Origin: Phycisphaerae bacterium
GTDB lineage: Bacteria > Planctomycetota > Phycisphaerae > Phycisphaerales > SM1A02
Length of the DNA: 54,208 nucleotides
Direction of reading: 5' to 3'
NCBI GenBank assembly: GCA_002709755.1
Contig: PAQN01000012.1
Location: forward strand, 1 to 54,208
The notes under the pieces are model-generated. The model was not told the origin of the DNA. It did no database searches and worked only from the letters and a program-made list of their open reading frames with translations. Below are positions 45,541-53,360 of this stretch, one piece after another; position 1 is the stretch's first letter, and each line of letters begins with the position of its first letter. Made by a program: the position numbers and the translations under genes.

Positions 45541-46050
45541 ATGGCCAACACACAAGAATCAACACGGCAGGACCTCCCTCAGCTGATGGCACCGATCTGT
45601 TCGGTGTTTCGTCGATACCTGAAGTCGAAAGGCCTGAAATACACGCCAGAACGAGCTCAGATTCTCGACGCGATCATCGATCGTGACAACGTCTTCGAAG
45701 TCGAGGAGCTTCTTCTCGACATGCGCGGCTCGAATCATCGTGTCTCCAAGGCGACGATCTACCGCACCATCAGTCTCCTGGTCGAGGCTGGAATCATCAC
45801 CCAGGCCCTGTTCGACTCGAAGCAGGCGCATTACAGACTCATCTACGGACTCGAGCCCCGCGACCACATGGTGTGCATGCGAACGGGACGACTGGTCGAA
45901 TTCTCCAACAAGGAGATCACGAAGCTTCGTGACAAGATCTGCCGTGAACTCGGCTGGGAACCGACGGGCCATCGCTTTCAGATCTACGCACTCAGTCCCG
46001 TCGAGGAGCACGAGGACGGCGAAGAGACATCGGAACCGGACGCCAGCTAG
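45541..46050 (+). CDS. Fur-family transcriptional regulator without the C-terminal zinc cysteines
   Basis: A 169-residue DNA-binding protein. The winged-helix domain is typical: GLKYTPERAQILDAIIDRDN, VFEVEELLLDMRGSNHRVSK, ATIYRTISLLVEAGIITQ. The dimerisation domain has RDHMVCMRTGRLVEFSNKE, where Fur normally has HHDHLxCxxCG: only one cysteine remains (C then T), and the C-terminal second CxxC is absent. The structural zinc site is therefore probably missing, while some metal ligands (His/Asp) remain. The regulated metal or signal cannot be named. The start ATG 45541 is leaderless by inference; the open frame upstream to 45418 overlaps the divergent gene. Its last 4 bases overlap the stop of the convergent tsaE-yacG gene. 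Confidence 0.85.
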   Translation: MANTQESTRQDLPQLMAPICSVFRRYLKSKGLKYTPERAQILDAIIDRDNVFEVEELLLDMRGSNHRVSKATIYRTISLLVEAGIITQALFDSKQAHYRLIYGLEPRDHMVCMRTGRLVEFSNKEITKLRDKICRELGWEPTGHRFQIYALSPVEEHEDGEETSEPDAS

Positions 46051-46700
46051 GCGAGATCAGGGTCGAAGAGATCATCCTCCTCGATCTCTCGGGAGACCGA
46101 ATAGCTTCCGTCGAACCAGTTTCCAAGATCCGCCATCCTGCATTTGTTTCCGCAGAATGGAAACGATCCGACACCTGCATGGATCTGCTTTCCACATCCC
46201 CTGCACTTCGTGAACAACTTATTCATCAAATCGGACGAAAGAGACGAACCGAACACGATCTCTCTGCCCGGAACTTCACCACCTGACGATGACGAGTGAA
46301 AGAGTTCCAACTCGAGGACGTTCTCTCCCAATGCTCCGCCAAGCCTGTCCGGCCATTCCACGACGATCACGTTTCGCCGGTCACGAACGATCTCGTCCCA
46401 GCCAAGTTCCATCAGTTCGGCTGGATCTTCGAGGCGATAGGCGTCGACATGGACGAGACATCTTCCTGATTTCTGATCCGACGGCTCATGCACATGCATC
46501 ACCGTGAACGTCGGACTTGATATCTCCTCTTCAGGGACACCAAGGCCCGAAGACATGCCTCGGACGAAGGTCGTCTTCCCAGCGCCCAGATCACCGGTCA
46601 ATGCGATGCGTTCACCACCCTTGCAGAGCAGGCCGAGCGCCCGGGCGAAGGACTCGGTCTCATGCGAGTCGCGAAGAAATGCTGATGGCTTGGGGCTCAC
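46047..46700 (-). CDS. tsaE: TsaE-YacG fusion protein
   Basis: A 217-residue protein joining two known small domains in one frame. Residues 1-150 are TsaE, the ATPase of the t6A (threonylcarbamoyl-adenosine) tRNA modification complex: Walker A TGDLGAGKTT (35-44), switch region SSPTFTVMHVHEP, and VHVDAYRLEDPAELMELGWD. Residues 159-217 are a YacG-type zinc ribbon: CRGCGKQIHAGVGSFPFCGN with KCRMADLGNWFDGSY, giving cysteines 166, 169, 183 and 187. YacG binds and inhibits DNA gyrase in E. coli. The start GTG 46700 overlaps the thiL stop (GTGA). An ATG at the domain junction has no ribosome binding site, so I read it as a true fusion. It is the last gene of the operon and ends in an acidic tail. 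Confidence 0.87.
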   Translation of the reverse strand: MSPKPSAFLRDSHETESFARALGLLCKGGERIALTGDLGAGKTTFVRGMSSGLGVPEEEISSPTFTVMHVHEPSDQKSGRCLVHVDAYRLEDPAELMELGWDEIVRDRRNVIVVEWPDRLGGALGENVLELELFHSSSSGGEVPGREIVFGSSLSSDLMNKLFTKCRGCGKQIHAGVGSFPFCGNKCRMADLGNWFDGSYSVSREIEEDDLFDPDLA

Positions 46701-47659
46701 CGGAACCCTCCTTCCGAGTCGGAACTGTCCCGGGCCGCCGGTCGTGTCTGATGCTCCCATCCTGAGGCCTCGAGCGGGGCCTGATCGCCACTCGAATCCA
46801 GAAAGACCCCCTCCCCATGCTCGACCCTTCCGATCACAGTGAGCGGCACCTCCGCGATGCACGCGGGGAGTTCGGCGGTGGCGGACACGGTGAAGCACAA
46901 CTCGTAATCCTCACCATCACAAAGCGCCTGTTCCAGTTTCGAGTCGTGACGCCTGGGGATTCGTTCGCCCTCAATCACGATTCGGACTTTCGACTCTCGT
47001 GAGAGATGCGACAGTTCTGAACTCAGTCCGTCAGAGACGTCGATCATGCTGGTGAGGCAATTCCCAAGCGAGCGATGAAGACTCCGCGCCACGTCGATGC
47101 GAGGCATGAACTCCTGATGGTGTCCGCCACCATCGGAATCCAGGGAAGCTCCGAATTCACCGCTGACGCAGACAAGATCACCCGGACGGGCTTCGCTGCG
47201 GAGGACCAGACGATGTCCGGCTTCTGGATCGGGTGTCGCCAGCACGGTCGACGAAAAGACCATCGAGTCGCCAACGGCCGGAAGGACGGCGATGTCCCCA
47301 CCGATGAGCGGGCACTCGAACATGGAGCCTATTCTTTGCAACTCCGAGGCAAAGCGGTTGGCCCATTCCGTCTCGATGTCGGGTGACAGGGCTGCGGCGA
47401 CGACCATGCCGGCGGGGCAGGCCGCCATCGCGGCGACGTCGCTGAGCGAGCGGGCGGCGACCTTCCAGGCGAATCTCTCCGGTGCGGCGCTGTCTGCAAG
47501 ATGCACACCTGCGATCACCTGGTCGACACCGGCGAGGACCACCCCCCCGCTTTCGGCCAGCCTAACCTCCCCGAGATCGTCACCCGGAGGGACCTCCACC
47601 CGATCACCCAGTGAGGGGTTTTCTTGTCTTATTCGTCTGATCACTTCGAATTCCCGCAT
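46697..47659 (-). CDS. thiL: Thiamine-monophosphate kinase
   Basis: A 320-residue enzyme that phosphorylates thiamine monophosphate to thiamine pyrophosphate. The AIRS/ThiL family motifs are present: VPPGDDLGEV (metal and ATP binding), VDQVIAGVHLA, PLIGGDIAVL, SMIDVSDGLSSELSHLS and LCDGEDYELCFTV. The start ATG 47659 shares one base with the waaA stop (TGATG), and the stop overlaps the tsaE start, so waaA, thiL and tsaE-yacG are translationally coupled. The C-terminus is extended by a short Ser/Asp-rich tail (RPAARDSSDSEGGFR). Essential for thiamine cofactor synthesis unless another kinase exists. Confidence 0.96.
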   Translation of the reverse strand: MREFEVIRRIRQENPSLGDRVEVPPGDDLGEVRLAESGGVVLAGVDQVIAGVHLADSAAPERFAWKVAARSLSDVAAMAACPAGMVVAAALSPDIETEWANRFASELQRIGSMFECPLIGGDIAVLPAVGDSMVFSSTVLATPDPEAGHRLVLRSEARPGDLVCVSGEFGASLDSDGGGHHQEFMPRIDVARSLHRSLGNCLTSMIDVSDGLSSELSHLSRESKVRIVIEGERIPRRHDSKLEQALCDGEDYELCFTVSATAELPACIAEVPLTVIGRVEHGEGVFLDSSGDQAPLEASGWEHQTRPAARDSSDSEGGFR

Positions 47660-48924
47660 CAATCCACGCTCCCAACGGAAATCGGATCATCAAGGAGCGA
47701 TTCAAGGATCACACGAGTCCGTTCAGTGGCGCCCTGCTGGGCCCGAACGACGGCATGTGCATTGCCGGCGAGGCGCTCTCGGCGTTCGGTCGATTCCAGA
47801 AGTCCATGAAGCACGTCCCGAAGCCCAAGGGCGTCGGTGACGATGATGCCATCGCCTTCGACGAGTTTTTCAACGGTGTCGGCGAAGTCGGAGGTTGATG
47901 GTCCGACCACGACGGGCTTTCCAAGAGCGCACGGCTCCATCATGTCACTTCCATGCAGCCCTCCGAAACTCCTTCCGATTATGACCACGTCGGCCAGTCG
48001 ATAGGCGGCGCCGAGCTCTCCGATGGTGTCGAGCAGAAAAAGACCGGTCTCACTGCCCGGCCGACCGCTGCTTCTTCTGGCGCAGCCCTGCAGGACCTCC
48101 GCCGCCTCATCGAACCACTCAGGACGCCTCGGCGCACAGAGAAGTTGCACGCCCCGTGGGATCGAATCTAGAAGGAGCCGATGTTCTTCGGGGGCGGTGG
48201 AACCCGCCACGATGAGTGGCTTCTCGGAATCGATGCCTAGAGCGGCCGCCAGAGCCACCGCCTCATCGGCTCGGTTTGAATAGGATGCCGCATCCCATTT
48301 CATCGTTCCTGTCACCGTCACTCCTGAATGAGGCGCCCCAAGAGCACGGAACCTCTCCGCGTAGACATCGGTCTGAGCGGCGACGACATCGACACGCTTG
48401 AACATGTGCCTGACCAGCCAGGAGACCCTTGAATAACCGCGAAAACTGCGCTCGCTCAAGCGACCGTTCACCACAGCGATCGGAATTCCTCTGCGACGGC
48501 ATTCACTCGTGAAATTGGGCCAGAGCTCCAACTCGACCATCACGGCGACATCCGGCCGGACGGCATCGAGAAAACGGCGGACACACCAGCCCAGATCGAC
48601 TGGATACCGAATCACGCTGCATCGTGCTCCATACAACGCCGAGGCACGGGCGAATCCGGTTTCAGTGGTCGTCGCGATGACGACGTCGTACGGATCCGCC
48701 CTGTCGAGCAGCTGCGAGACGAGGGTCTTGATCGCATTCGATTCTCCCACGGACACGGCATGGATCAGAACTCTGGGCCTGCCAGGTGCATCAAGTCCGG
48801 ATACCTGACCGAGCCTCGAGCGGAGGTCGTAGCCACGCTTCGAGCGGATGATGAGCATGGGCACCAGGAGTGGCGATGCGATCAGAAGAAATGCGAGATA
48901 GATGAGATCGACGAGGATGCTCAT
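47659..48924 (-). CDS. waaA: 3-deoxy-D-manno-octulosonic acid transferase
   Basis: A 421-residue, membrane-associated glycosyltransferase (KdtA/WaaA) that adds Kdo to lipid A precursors. It has an N-terminal membrane helix (residues 5-27), then VLIHAVSVGESNAIKTLVSQ (the acceptor-side motif), TTTTETG-type IATTTETGFARA, MVELELWPNFTSECRRRGIP (the conserved ETELWPN appears as VELELWPN), and the C-terminal CMP-Kdo site with GRSFGGLHGSDMMEPCALGK. It shows that the organism makes a Kdo-bearing lipopolysaccharide core. ATG 48924 lies 6 bases after the stop of the TlpA-like gene, and its stop overlaps thiL by one base. Confidence 0.95.
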   Translation of the reverse strand: MSILVDLIYLAFLLIASPLLVPMLIIRSKRGYDLRSRLGQVSGLDAPGRPRVLIHAVSVGESNAIKTLVSQLLDRADPYDVVIATTTETGFARASALYGARCSVIRYPVDLGWCVRRFLDAVRPDVAVMVELELWPNFTSECRRRGIPIAVVNGRLSERSFRGYSRVSWLVRHMFKRVDVVAAQTDVYAERFRALGAPHSGVTVTGTMKWDAASYSNRADEAVALAAALGIDSEKPLIVAGSTAPEEHRLLLDSIPRGVQLLCAPRRPEWFDEAAEVLQGCARRSSGRPGSETGLFLLDTIGELGAAYRLADVVIIGRSFGGLHGSDMMEPCALGKPVVVGPSTSDFADTVEKLVEGDGIIVTDALGLRDVLHGLLESTERRERLAGNAHAVVRAQQGATERTRVILESLLDDPISVGSVD

Positions 48925-49574: not shown

Positions 49575-52500
49575 ATGAATTGCTCGATGAGGAACCCTGA
49601 ACGCCCCTGGTTGATTGCGATCGACACCGGTGGCACCTTCACCGATGCGGTGGCACGAACCCCGACTGGGGAGCAACGGCGCACGAAGGTCCTCTCCAAT
49701 GGGTCGATTCGTGCTCGAATCGTCGAGATCCTGGGCCCACGGCGTTGCCGACTCGACTTCCACGGCCTTGCGATCCCCGAGGGTCTTCTCACCGGGTTCT
49801 CCCTCAGGTCGGCTGAGTCGTCGGCAACGCCCATCGTCTGCGACGTGAACGATGGAGTCCTCGTATTCGATACCGATGTCAAGGCATCGATGGGTGCCGT
49901 GATCGAACTCAAGGCCCCCTTCGACGCCCCCAGATTGGCCTTGCATCTGCTCGTGGGAACCCTGCCGGGCCAGAGCCTTCCTCCAATCGATCTTCGAGTG
50001 GCGACGACACGAGGGACCAATGCACTGCTGGAGAACAAAGGGGACTCATTCGCACTCGTCCTCAACGAAGGCATGAAGGATCTTCTCGAGATAGGAGATC
50101 AGAGCAGGAGGGACATCTTCGCACTGGAGACTCATCGCGAGTCCCTCACGGCGAAGGCGACGCTCGAAACCTCCTCACGGCTGGACAACAAGGGCGAACG
50201 ACTCTCCCTCGCACACGACCGGGAACTTGATCTCATCGCGGAAAGGTTGAAGGAAACCCAGGTCGATGCATGCGGGATCAGTCTGATTCACGCACATCTG
50301 GATCCCGACTTCGAGAAGAACATCGCAGAGCAGCTTTCGCGTCGTGGCGTTGAGAACATCATACGTGCCACCGAGCTCTCGAAGTCTCACGGACTGGGCG
50401 CCAGAACGGAGACGCTTGCGGTCGAGGCTTCGCTACACGGGATCATGAAATCCTTCGTCGACGAGTTGCTTCCCACGACGATGAATCATCGAAACATCTC
50501 CGTTATGACGAGTTCAGGGGGACTGACCGGGGAAGGGGCATTCAAGGCGAAGGACGGACTTCTCAGCGGCCCGGCAGGGGGCGTGGTTGGTGCGTCTCTG
50601 GCGGCGACACGCTGCGACGAACCGAGAATCCTGGGGTTCGACATGGGAGGGACGAGCACGGATGTCTCTCGATGGGACCGAAGGATGCTCTATCGGTTTG
50701 AAACGAAAGTGGGACCGGCACGAATACAGTCACCATGCCTGGCGATCGAGACGGTGGCGGCCGGGGGCGGCTCGATTTGCTCCTTCGGATCCGAGGGTCT
50801 CAAAGTCGGTCCGGAAAGCGCCGGCGCCAGTCCGGGACCGGCTTGTTACGGGGCCGGTGGGCCACTCACCGTGACCGATGTCAACCTGCTCGCCGGCCGT
50901 GTGTCCGCCGAGCGTTTCGGCATCCCGGTCGACTTCGGGGCGGCCGAGCGAGCGCTTGAATCACTCATGATTTCGATGATCGACGCCGGCCGAGAAAGAA
51001 CATCCCGGGAGAATCTTCTGCTCGCACTGATTGACATCGCCAATGAACGCATGTCAGAAGCGATGCAGTCGATCTCACTCCGAGAGGGTGCCGATCCTGC
51101 GGCACACACGCTCGTCCCCTTCGGCGGGGCTGGTGGGCAACATGCCTGTGCGATTGCGGATCGACTTGGCATCGAGCGCATTCTGTTCCCACCAGGAGCC
51201 GGGCTTCTCAGCGCACATGGCGTTCTCGGCGCTCCGGAACAACGGTTCGAACAAAGGGAGCTGGATCTCGAACTCAGTGAGGCGATGTGTGTTCTTCCAC
51301 GATTGATGGAGTCTCTGGAGCAGTCGGCACACTCGGCTCTATCGAAGAACGTCACCGAGAAGGAGACGCGTCGCATTCTCGCTCTGAGGCTTCTCGGCCA
51401 GGAAGACGTCATTCAGATCGACCATCATCCACACTGCGACCTTGAATCGATCTTTCATGATCGATTCACACGACTGTACGGATACCCACCACCTCGTAGA
51501 GAGATCGAAGTGGCCTGGGTACGGGTCGTCGTGACTGAGAGACTCATCTCAACGACCGGATTAGATGATGCGAACGATGCCGTTCACGGAAACGCGCCTT
51601 CGCCGACGAACACGGCGCACAGGATGCTCACGAGGGAAGGCTGGATCGATTCGAACCTTCATCATCGCACGGATCTCGCACCCGGCGACCGGCTTGCCGG
51701 TCCCGTCGTCATTGATGACGACGGGGCGACCTTCGTGATGGAGTCGGGTTGGGCGCTTGAGGTTCTTGCCGATCGAAGTCTCATGATCACAAGGACGAAT
51801 TCGACTGCATCTGAACTCGACGTGACAGGTCCCGCAGCATCCGAGCTCGTCAGCGCCCGCATCGGCGACATTGCCGTCGGCATGGGGCGACTCCTGCAGC
51901 GAACCGCTCTGTCAGTGAACGTCAAGCAGCGGCTTGATTTCTCTTGCGCGATTCTCGACAGGCACGGCAGACTGCTTGTCAACGCCCCGCACATGCCGAT
52001 TCACCTCGGTTCGATGGGCCCCTGCGTGCGAGAGACGATCAAGCAGATTCAACCCGCGCCCGGAGACGTCATCGTCACAAACCACCCTGCATGCGGTGGA
52101 TCCCATCTGCCCGACGTGACATTGGTGGCCCCGGTGCATGATGACGCCCTGAGACTTCTCGGATACGTCGCGGTCAGGGCCCATCACGCCGAGATCGGGG
52201 GCTCGAGACCGGGATCGACCCCCCCATTCTCCGCTCGACTCGAAGAAGAGGGCGTGATCATCCCCCCGATGCACCTGGTTCGTGGTGGCATCGAGTGTTT
52301 CGAGGGAATTCGCCGAGCTCTGAATGAGTCGTTGTTTCCAAGCAGGCGCTCGGAGGAGAACATCGCGGATCTGCGAGCCCAACTCTCCTCGGTTCGTCAT
52401 GGATGTTCCAGGTTGACGGAACTTGCAGGGTCGATCGGGTCCGATGCGTACATCGATCTGGCTGATGGAGTCAGAGTTCGTGCCATGAACGCAGCGAGAC

Positions 52501-53360
52501 GCGCGATCCGCAGTATCGGCGATCTAGACACCATCGTCGAACAACGCCTGGATGATGGGACATTGATCCGACTTCACGCGCTCTCGGACGGAGAACGACT
52601 CTCACTCGACTTCAGTGGCACCTCGCCCCGCCATCCGATGAACTTCAACGCTCCGCTCGCGATCACGCTCGGAGCGACCGTCTACCTGATGCGTGTCCTC
52701 GCCCATGAAACACTGCCGATGAACGAAGGGTTGCTCGAACCAATCGATCTTCACGTCCCTGAATGCTTTCTCAATCCCAGTTTCACAGGAGATCCTCACC
52801 GGGACCCCGCTGTCTGCGCGGGAAACACCGAGACATCACAGCGTGTCACCGACACGCTCATGCTCGCCTTCGGACTGGCGGCATGCAGTCAGGGAACGAT
52901 GAACAATCTCCTGTTCGGCGATGACTCCTTCGGCTACTACGAGACCATCGCGGGTGGCTCAGGAGCCACGAAGCGGTCCGACGGCACCCACGCGGTGCAC
53001 ACCCACATGACGAACACCCGGATCACCGACCCTGAAACGCTCGAGTCACGCTATCCCGTCATGTTGCGGCGATTTGAAATCAGACGGGGCTCGGGAGGCG
53101 AGGGGCTCAGGCGAGGCGGCGATGGGGTCATCAGGAGCATCCAGGCCCGGAAGCCGCTTGAGTTCAGCTTCATCGGTCAGCATCGGAAGGAACGCCCTTA
53201 CGGACTGCACGGCGGAGGCGCCGGAGTCTGTGGCCGCCAGTACGTCGAGAGAGCCGACGGCAGCGTTCACGAACTTTCCGGAAGCGAGGAATTCAGCCTC
53301 GAGCCGGGCGACATCATCACCATTGAAACACCAGGCGGTGGCGGCTGGGGATCGGCCTGA
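49575..53360 (+). CDS. Fused hydantoinase A/B protein, 5-oxoprolinase-like
   Basis: A 1261-residue soluble enzyme joining both halves that are separate in some bacteria. Residues 1-700 are hydantoinase A-like: PWLIAIDTGGTFTDAVARTP (ATP-binding), ATTRGTNALLENKGD, VMTSSGGLTGEGAF, ILGFDMGGTSTDVSRWD and VPFGGAGGQHACAIADRLGI. Residues 745-1255 are hydantoinase B-like: LQRTALSVNVKQRLDFSCAI, GDVIVTNHPACGGSHLPDVT, YETIAGGSGATKRSDG and RRGSGGEGLRRGGDGVIRS. The length matches ATP-dependent 5-oxoprolinase (about 1250-1290), which opens pyroglutamate to glutamate; acetone carboxylase or N-methylhydantoinase activity is possible. AGGA lies 4 bases before ATG 49575. It is divergent from the TlpA-like gene across 41 bases. 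Confidence 0.93.
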   Translation: MNCSMRNPERPWLIAIDTGGTFTDAVARTPTGEQRRTKVLSNGSIRARIVEILGPRRCRLDFHGLAIPEGLLTGFSLRSAESSATPIVCDVNDGVLVFDTDVKASMGAVIELKAPFDAPRLALHLLVGTLPGQSLPPIDLRVATTRGTNALLENKGDSFALVLNEGMKDLLEIGDQSRRDIFALETHRESLTAKATLETSSRLDNKGERLSLAHDRELDLIAERLKETQVDACGISLIHAHLDPDFEKNIAEQLSRRGVENIIRATELSKSHGLGARTETLAVEASLHGIMKSFVDELLPTTMNHRNISVMTSSGGLTGEGAFKAKDGLLSGPAGGVVGASLAATRCDEPRILGFDMGGTSTDVSRWDRRMLYRFETKVGPARIQSPCLAIETVAAGGGSICSFGSEGLKVGPESAGASPGPACYGAGGPLTVTDVNLLAGRVSAERFGIPVDFGAAERALESLMISMIDAGRERTSRENLLLALIDIANERMSEAMQSISLREGADPAAHTLVPFGGAGGQHACAIADRLGIERILFPPGAGLLSAHGVLGAPEQRFEQRELDLELSEAMCVLPRLMESLEQSAHSALSKNVTEKETRRILALRLLGQEDVIQIDHHPHCDLESIFHDRFTRLYGYPPPRREIEVAWVRVVVTERLISTTGLDDANDAVHGNAPSPTNTAHRMLTREGWIDSNLHHRTDLAPGDRLAGPVVIDDDGATFVMESGWALEVLADRSLMITRTNSTASELDVTGPAASELVSARIGDIAVGMGRLLQRTALSVNVKQRLDFSCAILDRHGRLLVNAPHMPIHLGSMGPCVRETIKQIQPAPGDVIVTNHPACGGSHLPDVTLVAPVHDDALRLLGYVAVRAHHAEIGGSRPGSTPPFSARLEEEGVIIPPMHLVRGGIECFEGIRRALNESLFPSRRSEENIADLRAQLSSVRHGCSRLTELAGSIGSDAYIDLADGVRVRAMNAARRAIRSIGDLDTIVEQRLDDGTLIRLHALSDGERLSLDFSGTSPRHPMNFNAPLAITLGATVYLMRVLAHETLPMNEGLLEPIDLHVPECFLNPSFTGDPHRDPAVCAGNTETSQRVTDTLMLAFGLAACSQGTMNNLLFGDDSFGYYETIAGGSGATKRSDGTHAVHTHMTNTRITDPETLESRYPVMLRRFEIRRGSGGEGLRRGGDGVIRSIQARKPLEFSFIGQHRKERPYGLHGGGAGVCGRQYVERADGSVHELSGSEEFSLEPGDIITIETPGGGGWGSA

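Follow-up and report, generated by a model that had tools for sequence, protein, structure and literature searches.

The window, by which is meant the whole 54,208-nucleotide stretch that was analysed, comes from a Phycisphaerae bacterium genome of 2.6 Mb in 59 contigs that is 92% complete, and carries a single minus-strand gene in which a TsaE domain is followed by a YacG domain (Table 1). The frame is open from the GTG at 46700 to the TAG at 46047. The first-pass annotation of this DNA had given that interval correctly without naming the strand, and its central claim, that a full TsaE and a YacG with all four zinc cysteines share one uninterrupted frame, is borne out by the open frame and by the Pfam domains. 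It had also described the start as coupled to thiL through a GTGA overlap, which is the case: the GTG overlaps the thiL stop in this way, with the strong ribosome site GGAAGGAGGG before it. The identity of thiL is given by TIGR01379 (202.7 bits, cut-off 184.15). A waaA-like gene (KDO-transferase-like), thiL and tsaE-yacG lie in close succession on the minus strand (window 46697-48924) and probably form one operon. At its other end, the stop codon of the fused gene overlaps by two bases that of a convergent Fur-family gene (45541-46050, plus strand; window 46047-46050).

Table 1. Features of the fused gene and its surroundings; positions are those of the window.
Feature	Position	Strand	Description or basis
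tsaE-yacG fusion gene	46047..46700	minus	217 codons plus stop, GTG start; open frame, Pfam domains
Shine-Dalgarno region GGAAGGAGGGTTCCG	46701..46715	minus	directly 5' of the fusion GTG, inside thiL
thiL (thiamine-phosphate kinase), upstream partner	46697..47662	minus	TGA stop overlaps the fusion GTG (GTGA)
TsaE domain, aa 10-136	46293..46673	minus	Pfam PF02367, TIGR00150, fold match, invariant columns
Linker, aa 137-164, with short helix 156-162	46209..46292	minus	length varies among fused relatives
In-frame ATG (M159), the only one near the YacG domain	46224..46226	minus	unconserved, without ribosome-binding sequence
YacG domain, aa 165-210	46071..46208	minus	Pfam PF03884, alignment to 1lv3/4tma, column counts

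The N-terminal part of the protein matches PF02367 (E 1.4e-33, 116 bits, cut-off 26.6) and passes the TsaE equivalog model TIGR00150 (85.2 bits, cut-off 60.1). In an alignment of 22 fused proteins, residues G36, G39, G41, K42 and T43 of the Walker A motif GDLGAGKTT are invariant, as are D86, E115 and W116; fused relatives are 31-50% identical (A1 alignment). An AlphaFold2 model of the window protein, made with a 36-row alignment, has a mean pLDDT of 91 and a pTM of 0.83, and its TsaE part superposes on Thermotoga TsaE (6s84_B) with Z 20.7 and an rmsd of 2.4 Å over 156 residues, and on 6n9a_E with Z 20.4. The protein thus shares with known TsaE (YjeE/YdiB; TsaB2D2E2 t6A complex; PDB 6n9a, 6s84, 5np9, 1htw) the full domain, Walker A and the invariant residues, with fold matches of Z 17-21 and rmsd 2.1-2.6 Å over 144-160 residues, and differs from it by the extra C-terminal domain. 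The TsaE partners are likewise present, as the genome encodes TsaD, TsaB and TsaC/Sua5; it holds a single GyrB match, one TsaE match over the cut-off and hence no second bona fide TsaE, and a search of the genome gave no match to a second YacG. The short helix in the linker is probably the C-terminal helix of TsaE, which is present in the T. maritima and E. coli proteins and absent from that of A. aeolicus (PMC11648230).

The C-terminal part matches PF03884 (E 2.2e-10, 40.5 bits, Pfam gathering score 25.5). All four zinc ligands, C166, C169, C183 and C187, are present, and W195 aligns with W40 of E. coli YacG (alignment to 1lv3/4tma). The domain has in common with E. coli-type YacG (PDB 1lv3, 4tma; PMC10886550) the four zinc cysteines, the PF-C-x3-C motif, the D-L-x2-W core with its W40 equivalent, and an acidic tail. 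Unlike known YacG, it is fused to TsaE instead of being a free 65-residue protein, and it does not reach the NCBIfam "DNA gyrase inhibitor" YacG equivalogs NF002362 and NF001638 (35.5 against 79 and 28.3 against 83); the stand-alone YacGs of the order also fall below the equivalog cut-off (48-56 against 79). The label of zinc ribbon previously given to this domain does not hold, as YacG belongs to the treble-clef/TRASH group (PMC4999995). In the model, the YacG part has a pLDDT of 78-92, and the fold-search list was filled by TsaE matches, with no YacG structure among them. The pTM of 0.83 together with a confidently modelled YacG part may indicate that this domain packs on TsaE in a fixed way and is not just loosely tethered.

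The fusion is not confined to the window. A sample of 150 tsaE/yacG loci of Phycisphaerales, together with outgroup loci, was scored with profiles built for the analysis, to which the window was added; among the resulting 151 loci in Phycisphaerales, 88 are fused, 40 carry the two as separate genes in immediate neighbourhood, two have them further apart (one on the same strand with 800 bases between, and G482, where yacG lies away from tsaE), and 21 have TsaE without YacG. The states are unevenly distributed over the families: f1 has 25 fused loci and 20 without YacG; f2 has 39 fused, 8 adjacent and 1 without YacG; the 8 loci of f3 are all fused; f4 has 9 fused, 32 adjacent and 2 apart; f5 has 6 fused; and f101 is represented by a single, fused locus. 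In genomes of the same class outside the order, tsaE and yacG lie apart. When 392 genomes of the phylum were searched with a two-domain profile, a stop-free match to both domains was seen only within the order among the best-scoring matches, which alone were listed and near the top of which a fusion would rank. The wider contig scan relied on one TsaE peptide pattern, and other phyla may hold fusions of their own. The search for this architecture in planctomycetes that the first-pass annotation had proposed is thus answered by 88 fused loci. That annotation had named relatives with separate genes as evidence against a fusion; such relatives exist in 40 loci, yet they do not make the fusion false, and what does change is the picture of the order, which the fused form shares with split neighbours and with YacG-less forms. 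The 40 split neighbours show a pairing that predates the fusion or is less tight than it. The presence of TsaE without YacG in 21 genomes, and of the two as separate genes in 40, indicates that each part can stand alone. This is seen most closely within one genus, where G295 (L066) is fused and G499 (L101) has no YacG: in the latter tsaE comes to a stop at the linker, YacG is cleanly missing, and the next gene is apparently a protein-kinase frame, indicating that the YacG domain is dispensable to TsaE.

Comparison of these loci suggests where the fusion came from. Of 156 TsaE loci, class outgroups included, 132 have thiL as the immediate upstream neighbour of tsaE. Adjacent tsaE-yacG pairs of Phycisphaeraceae (for example in strain ZRK32, L308, and isolate OFTM326, L298) have the same gene order behind thiL and both domains intact, and differ from the window in being two genes, often with a 4-base overlap, instead of one; 17 of all 40 split pairs show such a 4-base overlap between the tsaE stop and the yacG start. 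The architecture of TsaE with a C-terminal YacG is an order-level (Phycisphaerales) fusion from a conserved tsaE-yacG pair behind thiL. It most likely arose when co-translated genes, often overlapping as ATGA or GTGA, lost the stop and start between them. Between fused and split states, 9 changes are needed on a thiL+TsaE tree of 136 rows, on which their direction (gain or loss) is not readable; this tree serves better than one of TsaE alone, which has too few columns for counting origins. Sister pairs in opposite states occur on it, such as G458 and G479 with a support of 98. The linker of fused relatives is 12-120 residues long, with a median of 29. In the fused loci of f2, thiL was not found near tsaE in 17 of 39 and lies elsewhere in the locus in 4 more; the fusion thus outlives the loss of its thiL neighbourhood.

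An internal start that would yield free YacG from the fused gene was considered and rejected. The ATG at residue 159 (46226-46224) has no Shine-Dalgarno sequence before it (the upstream letters are GTCCGATTTG), as the first-pass annotation had also read it. Across the order, 19 of 88 fused genes have an ATG no more than 75 bases away from the first cysteine, as against 33 of 40 split ones, a strong Shine-Dalgarno sequence occurs in 1 of the 88 fused genes, and the start is unconserved.

The zinc site has a history of its own in family f2 (loci L166-L213). Four zinc cysteines are found in 51 of the 88 fused proteins; in 37 of the 39 fused proteins of f2, ligands 2-4 are gone, the four cysteines being replaced by C-T/S-x-A/E, and these domains differ in this respect from known YacG. 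The named example L302 reads C-T-A-A, and L297, with C-S-A-C, is an intermediate. All other fused and all split YacGs keep four cysteines (the split G410 and G416, with a longer first spacing of C-x4-C, fall outside the column count), so that zinc loss is seen in fused forms only. In all 37 zinc-less domains the first cysteine is retained, as are P-F, D-L and the W40-equivalent tryptophan, the latter being invariant in 131 of 131 YacG domains counted in the order and outgroup, these 37 among them. The YacG part of the model of L302 is fairly confident (84-90 over most of it), and the linker is disordered. Decay of the zinc-less domain can be rejected: in three clades of zinc-less fused proteins, the YacG part gives pooled dN/dS values of 0.26, 0.06 and 0.26, where the TsaE part of the same genes gives 0.31, 0.09 and 0.26 (simple Nei-Gojobori estimates; in one of the clades, synonymous sites approach saturation). 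The zinc-less YacG domain is thus under purifying selection despite its lost metal site, and purifying selection is found in fused, split and zinc-less forms alike. The loss of three zinc ligands could reflect a changed task in this family. Ribosomal protein S4 offers a parallel, being a zinc-binding protein with cysteine-less relatives; in S4, the zinc and zinc-free forms come from distinct genes that horizontal transfer has spread (PMC3087516), whereas the YacG loss is found only in a fused domain.

In other bacteria, TsaE is established to reset TsaB-TsaD using ATP (PMC11648230). According to a review (PMC10886550), a YacG tryptophan inserts into GyrB while the C-terminal region obstructs the DNA site; the contact in E. 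coli is between YacG residue 40 and GyrB F513 (PMC5507300, which prints F40 where the PDB sequence has W). The best explanation of the fused protein, to which a probability of about 0.5 may be given, is that it is modular, an ordinary TsaE with a YacG that has been kept as a protein-binding module, most probably for GyrB. The N-terminal domain would be an ordinary ATPase resetting the TsaD-TsaB t6A enzyme, and the YacG domain, tethered to its C-terminus by a linker whose length varies, would keep its ancestral protein-binding role. Judging from conserved residues, its docking partner is most probably GyrB, contacted by way of the acidic tail and of the tryptophan that never varies (W195 in the window protein); the invariance of this contact residue makes gyrase the best candidate. 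The effect of the fusion would then be a fixed 1:1 production and co-localisation of the two domains, without either needing the other, and in f2 the fused domain would later have lost zinc binding while the presumed partner-contact residues stayed under selection. The gyrase side of the contact is uninformative in this respect: F513 is kept in GyrB of the window genome and also in 12 of 13 YacG-less genomes, the one F513L being in the YacG-less G376, and since this region is conserved in every genome examined, with or without YacG, F513 does not discriminate and co-variation of the GyrB site with YacG state was set aside as a line of evidence.

It is possible, if rather unlikely, that the fusion is neutral, a harmless by-product of an overlapping gene pair that leaves both functions unaffected and the role of YacG independent. 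The repeated switching between fused and split states, the unconserved linker and the loss of YacG in 21 genomes are what such a history would leave behind. That every sampled YacG-bearing locus of f1, f3 and f5 and the single one of f101 are fused is rather a persistent pattern for a neutral state, and the confinement of zinc-ligand loss to fused forms likewise speaks against it. A less probable alternative, which the first-pass annotation had also raised, is that the YacG of this order no longer acts on gyrase and has become an accessory of the t6A complex, contacting TsaB, TsaD or the tRNA. The fusion partner is indeed a t6A protein, and ligands 2-4 were lost in f2 fused proteins and never in split pairs, but that loss is limited to one family, fused proteins in the remaining five having kept their zinc ligands, the tryptophan that contacts gyrase does not vary even in the zinc-less domains, and TsaE occurs alone in 21 genomes of the order and in the class outgroup.

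Both gyrase and TsaE are ATP-driven, and the pairing is retained order-wide, whether as a fusion or as a tight operon. Together with the high pTM of the AlphaFold2 model, which suggests a defined two-domain arrangement, this leaves some room for the more doubtful idea, akin to the link proposed by the first-pass annotation, that TsaE and YacG regulate each other within one molecule, for example by TsaE bound in TsaB2D2E2 withholding YacG from gyrase, so that t6A synthesis or ATP state would set gyrase activity. In its most far-reaching form, which is equally doubtful, TsaE-YacG would link t6A modification to supercoiling, with TsaB-TsaD binding or ATP state gating the block of gyrase by YacG, and the zinc-less family would keep the link by means of a metal-free YacG; if this were true, that family would hold a zinc-independent gyrase-binding YacG. 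The tenfold variation in linker length, the persistence of split pairs with about 9 changes of state on the thiL+TsaE tree, and the clean absence of YacG from a member of the genus of a fused genome all stand against such coupling, as a variable linker, changes of state and YacG loss are not expected of an obligate switch. An assembly or sequencing error that joined two genes, for which only the 59-contig state of the window's assembly could be cited, can be dismissed, since independent relatives share the fusion (88 fused loci in independent assemblies, including the single-contig G368 and G429 and the named records L295, L296 and L299) and a read error at the junction is thereby excluded for practical purposes.

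The modular reading and its rivals bear on a combination that appears to be new. TsaE and YacG are each known families; the novelty lies in their fusion and its order-wide spread, in split pairs whose genes overlap, and in a zinc-less form that is still under selection. None of these was found described in the searchable literature, although the architecture may figure in automatic domain databases. In the literature searched, TsaE and YacG were named together only in Vibrio genome work, and no report was found tying TsaE to DNA topology. To our knowledge, little is known of the role of YacG outside proteobacteria. That the two proteins are paired across most of the order, and fused in over half of the loci sampled, suggests a context common to both, and makes for a testable link between two processes thought unrelated, tRNA modification and the control of DNA gyrase; if the gyrase link is true, translation fidelity and supercoiling would be physically and directly connected. 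The zinc-less YacG domains, being still under selection, set the metal site apart from the retained portion and so show which residues matter.

Elsewhere in the window, a plus-strand frame of 1261 codons (49575-53360) resembles, from its translation read by eye, a hydantoinase/oxoprolinase A+B fusion.
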